DNA from: Chromatiales bacterium (ex Bugula neritina AB1)
GTDB taxonomy: Bacteria; Pseudomonadota; Gammaproteobacteria; Granulosicoccales; Granulosicoccaceae
Reading direction: 5' to 3'
DNA length: 64,000 nucleotides
Assembly: GCA_001730015.1 (NCBI GenBank)
Contig: MDLA01000081.1
Location: 1-64,000, forward strand
The position numbers and the translations under genes are program-made. This document shows, piece after piece, positions 26,764 to 38,978 of this stretch. How positions within the stretch are numbered: the first letter of the stretch is position 1; the number at the start of each line of letters is the position of its first letter. The notes beneath the pieces were generated by a model. It saw only the letters and a list, made by a program, of their open reading frames with translations, searched no databases and was not told where the DNA came from.

Positions 26764-27942
26764 ATGACAATAGAAACAGACATTATAATAATCGGCGCAG
26801 GCATCGCCGGTGCTTCTGCCGCTTCGATTCTAGCCGAAACGGCTTCCGTTATTGTACTGGAGCAGGAAGCACATGCCGGCTACCATGCGACGGGCCGGTC
26901 AGCAGCCACCTGGGCGCCCGTATATGGCCCGCCAGCCATACAGGAACTGACCCGGTTATCGAGGCAGGCTCTTTGTGCACCACCGGCATCGCTCGGTGGC
27001 GTACCTTTTACCTCGCCACGCGGCGAAATGCTGCTTGGCCGACACGGCGATGAAGCAGAAATAGAATGCAGCAAAGAGTCCGGTATGGAGTCAATTTCAA
27101 TCGAGCAGGCAAAACAGCGGGTTCCACTAATTCGCTTCGATAAGGTAAGCACCGTTCTCTACTACGAAGATATGCTCTCCGTTGATGTAGATGCGCTGCA
27201 TCAGGCCTACCTGAAGAAATACAGAGCCAATGCGGGAACTATTGTCTGCAATGCGGCAGTAACCTCGCTTGAATATAAAAACAACAACTGGTATGTCACA
27301 ACACCTTCAAACTCCTATTGTGCGCCCGTTGTGATTAACGCAGCCGGCGCCTGGGCAGATAAAGTGGCAGCACTGGCTGGAGCCAGATCACTTAAGCTGC
27401 AACCCAAACGACGCAGCGCGGCACTGGTGCCTTTTGCTGAAAACTCGAATATGAACACCTGGCCGATGATCTTCAGCGCCGGTGAAACCTTCTATTGCAC
27501 CCCGTTTGGTAATGGAATGATGATCTCACCGGCCGACGAAACAGCAGTGGAACCACATGATGCCTGGCCAGACGATGGTGATCTGGCCGGGGCTATCGAT
27601 ACCTTTGAGCAGTACATCGATTATAATGTTCCGAAAATCACGCACAGCTGGGCCGGGCTTCGCACCTTTGCTCCGGACGGCGACCCGGTCGTGGGCTTTG
27701 ACCCTGACATTGAAGGGTTTTTCTGGCTGGCCGGGCAAGGGGGTTACGGTATTCAAACATCCCCGGCAATGGCCGTGCTATCTGCCAGGCTGGTTAATGA
27801 ATACCGCAACGGCAAAAAGCTGCTATCGACAAAATACGCTGACAACAACGCCAGCAACACAGAACTAGCCGAACTATCAGCCGGCACTATTGACCATTTC
27901 GCTAAACGATTATCTCCATCAAGGCCCGGGCTTGGCACTTAA
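26764..27942 (+). CDS. FAD-dependent oxidoreductase, DAO/DadA-like
   Basis: 392 residues. The dinucleotide-binding start DIIIIGAGIAGASAASILAE and ARGATG-like GYHATGRSAATWAP are typical of the DAO family. The C-terminal GLRTFAPDGDPVVGFDP..GFFWLAGQGGYGIQTSPAMA block contains the FAD contact. Such enzymes oxidise amino acids, sarcosine or related amines with oxygen or a quinone as acceptor. It follows the molybdopterin protein by 47 bases. Its last codons and stop lie in the left terminal repeat of a MITE-like element (family 3), so the C-terminal residues may have been altered by that insertion. Confidence 0.88.
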   Translation: MTIETDIIIIGAGIAGASAASILAETASVIVLEQEAHAGYHATGRSAATWAPVYGPPAIQELTRLSRQALCAPPASLGGVPFTSPRGEMLLGRHGDEAEIECSKESGMESISIEQAKQRVPLIRFDKVSTVLYYEDMLSVDVDALHQAYLKKYRANAGTIVCNAAVTSLEYKNNNWYVTTPSNSYCAPVVINAAGAWADKVAALAGARSLKLQPKRRSAALVPFAENSNMNTWPMIFSAGETFYCTPFGNGMMISPADETAVEPHDAWPDDGDLAGAIDTFEQYIDYNVPKITHSWAGLRTFAPDGDPVVGFDPDIEGFFWLAGQGGYGIQTSPAMAVLSARLVNEYRNGKKLLSTKYADNNASNTELAELSAGTIDHFAKRLSPSRPGLGT

Positions 27943-28133
27943 CCCTGGTGTTGCATAAAATTTCGAGTTCATAAGCTTATAGAGCTGTATAAAAGGCACT
28001 GCACGGAGTTTTTACTGGATTGAGCCTAGTCATTCTAAGTGATATTCAGGAAAAATGAGTACAGCGCCTTAGATACTGCTATAGAAACAGCGCAGCGGTT
28101 CTGGGCCGGAATTTTATACAACACCAGGGTTAA
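27939..28133. repeat. MITE-like repeat family 3 (single copy, about 195 bases)
   Basis: Terminal inverted repeats of 24 bases match at 23 positions: the left end TTAACCCTGGTGTTGCATAA (27939 on) against the right end (to 28133), whose complement begins TTAACCCTGGTGTTGTATAA. The inside holds TAGTCATTCTAA, also found in the middle of a family 2 copy. No open frame of note lies between the ends. The stop codon of the preceding gene (27940-27942) is inside the left repeat. Confidence 0.85.
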
Positions 28134-28161
28134 TATTATCAAGAATAGATAATCGCTCGGT

Positions 28162-28189
28162 AATCAGCAATCAGCAATCAGCAATCAGC
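28162..28189. repeat. Four tandem copies of AATCAGC
   Basis: AATCAGC is repeated four times without interruption at 28162-28189, in the short space between the family 3 element and the stop codon of the convergent lipase gene. The 7-base unit would allow copy-number change without touching a coding frame. Confidence 0.9.
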
Positions 28190-28194
28190 AACGC

Positions 28195-29397
28195 TCAATT
28201 ACCGAATAAATTCGCTACAAAGCTCAGCACTTCATTTACGCTTTGATCCACCACCGTTGTATGATCAGCACTAGGGTATTCAGTGATGACAGAGTCGGTT
28301 CCATTTACGTTGCGCAGCAGATTATTCAGCGCAGACGTAGACTCAGGAAAAACAACGGAATCAAGCGACCCTTGCACCAACAGAACCGGAACATTAATCA
28401 CCTCGGTTCCGGGTTCATTACTGGCTAGATACTGAGCCACCTCCGGAATATCGATCACGGAGGCTGGAATAATGCTATCTACATTGCCGACTGTGCCCAG
28501 AGGAGCTACAACCAGACTGATCAGATTCTGAGCCAGCTGCTCGACGCATTCGGTTTGCAAATCAGCGAGTAATGCAGCACCAGCCTCCCCGAATACGGTG
28601 GATTGATTAAAACCGGTATCAGTTGCATCAACTCCGGCCGCCACAAGCGCACTGAACAAGAGCTGGCTTATCGCCGCTCTGGATCGCTCGGCCAGGCTGC
28701 GGCCGTTATCGGTCAGCGCTGCGTTCAGCGCTTCACTTTGAGAACGCAGATTGGTCGGCGGCGCAATAGCCACCACGCCTGTAAGCACAAGGTTAGGTAA
28801 CTCCCTGCTATATTCTGCAGCACCGAGTGCAGCGTGCCCGCCCTGCGAATGCCCGACTACCGCGAATTGGCTGGACAAGTCGCGATACTGTTGTACCGCT
28901 GCATCAACCGCATATAGTATAGAACGACCTCCGCTGGCCAGATTCAGGTAGGGATGCGAATCGTCTGTGCCCAGCCCTTCGAAATCCGCCGCAACAACAG
29001 CAAATCCGTTTTGCAGAAATTGATCAAGATAGGCCGCATTGCCGGCAAGGTTATCACTGGAAGAGGGCGCGCAGATATTGGCGACCCCGACAGACTGATG
29101 CCCCCAGGCAACAACCGGAAACCCTCCAGCTGGCGGGGTCCCGGCGGGAATAAGCACAACAGCTTTCTGTTGTGTAACACCACCAGCCACGGAAGGCATG
29201 CGGTAGGTAAGAAGTTCACTTGAAACAGCCGCGCCATCATTGGCGAGCACAAAATTCTCGATCCCGACAACCGGGTTCAATCCACCAAGCGGCCCGTTAC
29301 TGGCAGGAGATGTATCGGCTATTTGCCCGTCGCTGCCACAGGCCGACAACAACACTACTGTTGTCAGAAGCCACAAACGCGCGCTAAGTGCAATCAT
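28195..29397 (-). CDS. Secreted lipoprotein alpha/beta hydrolase (secretory lipase-like)
   Basis: 400 residues. The N-terminus MIALSARLWLLTTVVLLSACGSDGQ is a lipoprotein signal peptide with lipobox LSAC, so the mature protein is tethered to a membrane through its Cys. The nucleophile elbow is VGHSQGGHAALGA near residue 200. NVPVLLVQGSLDSVVFPE gives a likely Asp and YPSADHTTVVD the likely His. The layout resembles secretory lipases that act on triacylglycerols or other esters. It is divergent in function from its neighbours: it ends upstream of the MITE region and starts 10 bases after an aminotransferase stop on the same strand. Confidence 0.87.
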   Translation of the reverse strand: MIALSARLWLLTTVVLLSACGSDGQIADTSPASNGPLGGLNPVVGIENFVLANDGAAVSSELLTYRMPSVAGGVTQQKAVVLIPAGTPPAGGFPVVAWGHQSVGVANICAPSSSDNLAGNAAYLDQFLQNGFAVVAADFEGLGTDDSHPYLNLASGGRSILYAVDAAVQQYRDLSSQFAVVGHSQGGHAALGAAEYSRELPNLVLTGVVAIAPPTNLRSQSEALNAALTDNGRSLAERSRAAISQLLFSALVAAGVDATDTGFNQSTVFGEAGAALLADLQTECVEQLAQNLISLVVAPLGTVGNVDSIIPASVIDIPEVAQYLASNEPGTEVINVPVLLVQGSLDSVVFPESTSALNNLLRNVNGTDSVITEYPSADHTTVVDQSVNEVLSFVANLFGN

Positions 29398-32988: not shown

Positions 32989-33152
32989 CTAGCGCCCGTC
33001 CATAAACCGGGGCGTAGCAAGGGTCGCTCAGGTGCGTGAGATTTCATCTACCACATGTGGGCATTTAGTCATTCTAAATAACTACATGAGGTTAGTGAAA
33101 GATTGCGTGATTGAGTGTTCCACAGTAGCACCTGCTTGAGAATGAGCGCTAA
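32989..33152. repeat. MITE-like repeat family 2, copy 1
   Basis: 164 bases from CTAGCGCCCGTCCATAAACC to ATGAGCGCTAA, ending next to the stop codon of the LacI-type gene. It matches 41178-41342 along its whole length and in the same orientation, including GGTGCGTGAGATTTC, CTACCACATGTGGGC, TTCTAAATAACTACATG and GTGAAAGATTGCGT. The ends are inverted repeats of about 22 bases, the right one worn. Confidence 0.88.
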
Positions 33153-38548: not shown

Positions 38549-38978
38549 CCCGGCAATTACACCACTTCGCGAGGGTGCATCACGCCCTCGCTTCAATTGC
38601 CCGCACTAGCCCGCATTATTCACGGGATAGACGGAATCTCACTTGATCTTTGATTCCACAGCGAATTTTTTTCTCTTGCAAATATCAGTAAGTATTCGAC
38701 GCGAAAAGAAAATCCACTGTGAAATCAAATCTCGGCGCGATATCCTCACCACCCGGTGAACAATGCGGGCTAGCATAAAACGCCTGTGCCGGAATGAGGG
38801 GCGTATCGAAGCTATAATTTTTGAGCTAAAAGTTCGCCCCGGTGTTGATCTTCATTCCCGCACAGAGTTCCGGTCAATAGACTATGATAAAAGGCTGCCC
38901 TACCCCGTGAAGGAACAACCGCGTTGCAATTGCATGCTCGCCATACCCGCTGTCGACCCCGGTGTGTTTATAACCAAT
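38549..38978. other. 430-base intergenic region with repeat family 1 copy A
   Basis: The inverted-repeat element 38606-38773 fills the left half. The right half precedes the sigma factor start at 38979 and should hold its promoter. An open frame extends left from the sigma gene into the element, but it has no family match there. Confidence 0.6.
38606..38773 (+). repeat. MITE-like repeat family 1, copy A (best preserved)
   Basis: 168 bases. Left end CTAGCCCGCATTATTCACGG, right end CCGGTGAACAATGCGGGCTA(G), inverted to each other with few mismatches. Inside, GATTCCACAGCGAATTTTTT and the complement of the right arm (GATTTCACAGTGGATTTTCT) also pair, so the whole element can fold into one long hairpin. 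Other copies are at 32363-32545 and 19509-19626. No coding frame. Confidence 0.9.

Follow-up and report, generated by a model that had tools for sequence, protein, structure and literature searches.

In the window, that is, the whole stretch of 64,000 nucleotides that was analysed, a hairpin element sits directly at the stop codon of a DAO-type gene (encoding an FAD-dependent oxidoreductase). It is very probably a non-autonomous MITE of the IS1380 type that would have been moved in trans into a TTAA overlapping the stop codon, leaving the protein unchanged. Hairpin MITEs as a kind are already known; this one would be tied to a single IS1380 subgroup by its ends, its target duplication and a fragment of the partner in its own genome. 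In the course of events that we propose, a transposase of this subgroup would have moved the 187-bp element in trans, probably by cut-and-paste into TTAA-like sites. The target at this locus would have been the TTAA overlapping the DAO-type stop codon, and its duplication would have kept the stop, so that the protein stayed the same and a long hairpin was added only to the 3' untranslated region.

The original prediction described a repeated, mobile-type element of 195 bases with 24-base ends, whose start coincides with the DAO-type stop codon, and this description was confirmed with one correction. The outer 24 bases of positions 27939-28133 form an inverted repeat (23 of 24 identical), and the arms extend over 27 nt with 93% complementarity. 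Comparison of copies indicated that the first and last four bases (TTAA) belong to a target duplication, which leaves 187 bp rather than 195 for the element itself (CCCTGGTG...CACCAGGG; Table 1), and 21 of 23 bases match in its terminal inverted repeats. No listed open reading frame of at least 80 amino acids lies inside these 187 bp. The element is thus short and non-coding, with terminal inverted repeats, a target-site duplication and many dispersed copies, which are the features of a MITE. The inverted-repeat feature is far above chance, with a fold z of -7.2 as DNA and -7.9 as RNA, and with 210 matches to its end sequence (at most three mismatches) in its own genome against 0 for the reversed control. 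Shortly 3' of the element, at 28157-28192, there is also a short direct repeat of AATCAGC units.

Table 1. Features at and around the element, in window coordinates
Feature	Position	Strand	Basis or remark
FAD-dependent oxidoreductase (DAO-type) gene, 392 aa	26764..27942	+	PF01266, E 6.6e-51; unaltered by the insertion
Left target-site duplication copy, TTAA	27939..27942	.	Last three bases are the TAA stop of the DAO-type gene; sequence and duplication counts among copies
Hairpin MITE (family 3), element proper, 187 bp	27943..28129	+ (arbitrary, window orientation)	Repeat, fold and copy comparison
Left terminal inverted repeat	27943..27965	+	First 17 bases against IS1380-subgroup IS ends: 12-14/17
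Hairpin apex TAGTCATTCTAA, stem and loop TAG-TCATT-CTA	28027..28038	+	Folds; variable within family 3
Right terminal inverted repeat	28107..28129	-	Inverted-repeat comparison
Right target-site duplication copy, TTAA	28130..28133	.	Sequence and duplication counts among copies
Alpha/beta-hydrolase (secretory-lipase-like) gene, convergent, on the far side of the element	28195..29397	-	ORF list and domain search
Family-2 MITE, TAGTCATTCTAA centre, ends unlike family 3; separate element	32990..33151	+	Compared with the finding
Second family-2 copy, centre TAGTCGTTCTAA	41179..41341	+	Further copy in the window

The element belongs to a multi-copy family, here called family 3. A search of its own genome with the whole element gave 40 strong matches, scored out of 177 candidates. 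Among 13 other genomes of the genus searched in this way, G007 had a full copy at 90% and G002 a 27-base piece. The end pattern was found in seven of 48 genomes of the family, own genome counted, and three of the seven, from another genus (G043, G044 and G059), contained recognisable homologues. No match to the element was found in the plasmid collection, the phage collection or the viral contigs. Several homologues in G043 and G044 (L164, L165, L175, L176, L182 and L185) carry GC-rich inserts of ~15 bp at matching places in both arms, those of one arm looking like the reverse complement of those of the other. A diverged relative, L105 (G002:C283, about 1470-1530), has the ends CCCTTTTATTGCAAAAAATTT and adjoins a piece of the family-3 right arm, which suggests a sister family of family 3 with switched ends.

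Target duplications were counted among 61 distinct copies, including those of other genomes, 47 of which were full and had at least 10 nt on each side. An exact 4-bp duplication was present in 22 of these 47 and absent in 25, compared with 129 of 2162 (6.0%) when left and right flanks were taken from different copies. Almost all exact duplications start with T (21/22) and most end with A (19/22), giving mostly TNNA; TAAA occurred five times, TTTA four times and TTAA twice. Flanks of 600 nt or more were available on both sides for 41 copies, and in six of these copies a frame of at least 150 codons ended in the duplication. As background, 9 of the 37 non-coding TTAA sites of the window (24%) lie at stops, and the value for the wider set of target-duplication sequences is 40 of 477 (8%). 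Special targeting of stop codons was rejected, because six in 41 does not exceed what the distribution of TTAA-like sites would give; since many such sites already lie at stops, landing there is expected rather than special.

We considered whether the element might be kept because its hairpin acts in the transcript as a 3' RNA element, either a terminator or a stabiliser, between the two convergent genes. Its position would suit such a role, and the window copy folds end to end as RNA with an energy of -75.8 kcal/mol (z -7.9). However, the alignment of family 3 (44 copies kept by length, of which 43 were aligned and L089, without its right end, was left out) pointed the other way. Conservation was uniform along the element, with column means of 0.91-0.96 and an apex no more conserved than the rest. 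Paired cells amounted to 91.9%, against 91.9% in shuffles (149 of 500), and hence showed no excess, whereas pairs changed on both sides numbered 11 against 6.2 in shuffles and 8-15 in slid controls, so that covariation of stem pairs beyond the controls was not convincing in this alignment. A conserved RNA structure was rejected on these two counts. In addition, the consensus of the 43 copies folds at -94.0, compared with a mean of -78.7 for individual copies, which looks like the decay of a more perfect founder. At gathering thresholds no Rfam model matched the window, and the sole terminator-like site inside the element (28096-28108) is a weak 5-pair stem that matches a consensus only. Retention for an RNA function is hence unlikely, and the hairpin was probably inherited from the founder element, not kept by selection.

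The centre of the element was also said to be shared with family 2, hinting at a common origin or a shared loop function. The sharing itself stood: TAGTCATTCTAA occurs in the window at 28027 (family 3) and at 33066 (family 2), and it forms the hairpin apex in both families. The 12-mer is found 81 times in the genome against once when reversed, most of the sites that were read belong to family 2, and the consensuses of the two families have 10 nt (GTCATTCTAA) in common. The proposed explanation of this sharing fared less well. As many as 86 of 1000 shuffles align equally well, on which ground homology of the two families was rejected, and the exact 12-mer is present at 27 of 29 family-2 apices (by a flank-anchored pattern) but in only 7 of 43 family-3 copies, whose apex columns are not more conserved than the others. 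In the other genus, the tip of the family-3 homologues reads TCACT; moreover, the ends are unrelated and the transposases appear to be of different types, ISNCY for family 2 and IS1380 for family 3. Because the 12-mer is infrequent in family 3, the apex unconserved and the consensus similarity not significant, the shared centre is a weak lead rather than evidence, and a common ancestor or a functional loop seems quite unlikely.

Several observations concern family 2 itself. A full IS at L191 (G000:C144, about 146-1827) has ends TAGTGCCCATCCA that match the family-2 MITE, one copy of which directly adjoins it, and NCBIfam assigns its transposase to the ISNCY type (396.5 bits, cut-off 325). Head-to-tail pairs of family-2 elements, exactly 165 bp apart with a common TAG/CTA junction, were seen in three contigs of the same genome: C126 (14854/15019 and 220530/220695), C41 (75189/75354) and C191 (47839/48004). 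The congeneric genome G012 (loci L142, L147 and L150-L159) has 66 exact TAGTCATTCTAA sites, and every site read there belongs to a family-2 element; the family-3 end pattern does not occur in this genome. Furthermore, another hairpin MITE, with CTAGCCCGCATTATTCACGGG ends and 40 scored matches from 237 candidates in the genome, lies at 38606-38773 of the window; its ends resemble the IS1380-family ends CTAG-CCTGAATAATTCATAAG of L194-L196. The genome to which the window belongs harbours three hairpin MITE families with unrelated ends and many copies each, all of them full-length palindromes of 160-190 bp, and the tip TAG-TCAYT-CTA is common to two of the three. It is conceivable, although very unlikely, that one and the same host process or host protein, working at the hairpin tip, gives rise to elements of this kind or favours them, irrespective of the transposase that moves them.

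For the partner of family 3, the DDE_Tnp_1 and DDE_Tnp_1_4 loci of its own genome were inspected for matching ends. At the end of contig C133, TATA followed by CCCCCAGGTTGCATTAA lies upstream of a transposase frame of 315 aa, which is cut by the contig end; an intact IS with such an end was not seen in the same genome. The fragment scored 151.5 bits over 301 aa against the NCBIfam IS1380 model, below the cut-off of 180 because it is incomplete, and a relative, the transposase of L229, scored 244.9 bits. Seven loci encoding relatives of the C133 transposase were fetched from named genomes. In three of them a full IS (1614, 1632 and 1630 bp) is bounded on either side by CCCNNNNRTTGCATAA; one such end is present in two others and none in the remaining two. 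The ends of the full IS (CCCNNNNGTTGCATAA) match those of the MITE, and their duplications are TTAA or TCAA (exact TTAA in L229, exact TCAA in L230, none exact in L228), with the same length of 4 bp as in the MITE. Over 17 bases, eight IS ends agree with the MITE end at 12-14 positions and the C133 fragment at 12, whereas the four positions 4-7 differ between IS and MITE. On sequence comparison, the end match to this IS1380 subgroup is strong, but it is not blind, as the search pattern for IS ends was derived from the C133 copy. Under this model an intact C133 partner would be expected to have CCCNNNNGTTGCAT at both ends.

Other DDE_Tnp_1 loci of the genome were rejected as partners since their ends differ: L191 agrees with family 2, and L194-L196 are like the element at 38606. 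Of the 48 genomes, two that carry the MITE (G043 and G059) gave no match to the C133 transposase, and a third (G044) gave only a 39-aa fragment, which implies that loss of the partner, or its absence from the assembly, is frequent. The lack of a visible intact partner in the own genome, whose contigs break at repeats, would also be expected if a different transposase (for example, of IS5 or IS1182 type) had moved the element and its ends resembled the IS1380 subgroup by chance. Against this, the end motif, the 4-bp TNNA duplication and the partner fragment in the own genome point in one direction, and a scan of the other DDE_Tnp_1 loci (L190-L196) found no such end, so that movement by another type of transposase is highly improbable.

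With an IS1380-type origin preferred, the effect on the DAO-type gene can be considered. The original prediction supposed that the insertion may set the C-terminus of the protein. The TAA stop is formed by bases 2-4 of the duplicated TTAA, and when the flanks were joined with a single TTAA kept (the empty site in our model would read ...GGCACTTAATATTATC), the identical 392-residue protein was obtained; the protein is unchanged because the target sequence duplicated on insertion already contains the stop. Even with the flanks joined without any TTAA, the frame became only 5 residues longer. We also aligned the protein with 11 relatives, of which the six closest (L092-L097) share 56-66% identity. 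No full copy of the element was found in the genomes of these six (searched with the element for five and by the end pattern only for G017), and none was present after their stop codons in the flanks examined (160 nt; 24 nt for L092, where the contig ends). These relatives stop 2 to 9 residues past a conserved PxR (PxRF motif) and the window protein 5 past it; the C-terminus of the element-free relatives is hence at the same place, a short distance beyond PxRF. Judged from this comparison, the present C-terminus is the ordinary one, since relatives lacking the element stop near the same conserved motif, and the stop codon was not supplied by the insertion. It is this outcome that the original prediction had given as its own refutation. 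The view that the stop arose with the insertion and that the C-terminus was thereby truncated or exchanged, to which the start of the element exactly at the stop codon and the terminal residues GLGT, not common to most relatives, might lend some colour, is hardly tenable given the unchanged empty-site protein (which refutes it under the duplication model), the gain of merely 5 residues without TTAA and the stops of the element-free relatives.

The existence in bacteria of small MITEs whose transcripts form hairpins is well established (PMC2229807). As described in passages of Delihas (2007; PMC2229807), RUP of pneumococcus, ERIC/IRU and Correia/NEMIS are similar to the present element in having 100-200 bp, terminal inverted repeats, a target duplication, many copies and a transcript that would form a long stem-loop, and RUP is likewise linked to its IS (IS630-Spn1) through matching ends and target. 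In contrast, elements of the RUP/ERIC/Correia type mostly have TA ends, with TA as the RUP target, according to the same passages, whereas the element here starts with CCC and has a 4-bp TNNA duplication and IS1380-family ends. IS1380-family IS (NCBIfam NF033539, Pfam PF13701) have matching ends together with TTAA or TCAA duplications in the relatives L229 and L230, but they are about 1.6 kb long, whereas the element of 187 bp has no transposase gene. IS1380-like elements have been paired with the eukaryotic piggyBac superfamily in part of one source (PMC5718144), and piggyBac elements are described, in a portion of another, as usually having a TTAA duplication and ends starting with CCC (PMC10140906). 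The TTAA duplication and CCC ends found here are similar to these; unlike piggyBac, however, the element is bacterial and non-autonomous and has the looser target TNNA, strict TTAA accounting for just 2 of the 22 exact duplications. MITEPye1 of Paracoccus yeei, as presented in sections of PMC11578231, is also a hairpin MITE that was linked to an IS because their ends are alike, but it is of the IS1182 type and has 1-3 chromosomal copies. Fusion of MITEs to the 3' ends of genes, giving new C-termini, has been described for enterobacteria in a passage of PMC2759123; this corresponds to what had been suspected for the DAO-type gene, where it does not occur. Within the portions of the full-text literature on IS1380 and MITEs that were covered, namely passages of PMC9208149, PMC3542288 and PMC11578231, no MITE of the IS1380 type was described, which is no proof of absence in print.

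Thus, our data point to a multi-copy MITE family that would be tied to one IS1380 subgroup. For annotation, the model of the DAO-type gene needs no correction: an element targeting TTAA may settle on a stop codon without harm to the protein, since the TAA is retained when the target is duplicated.
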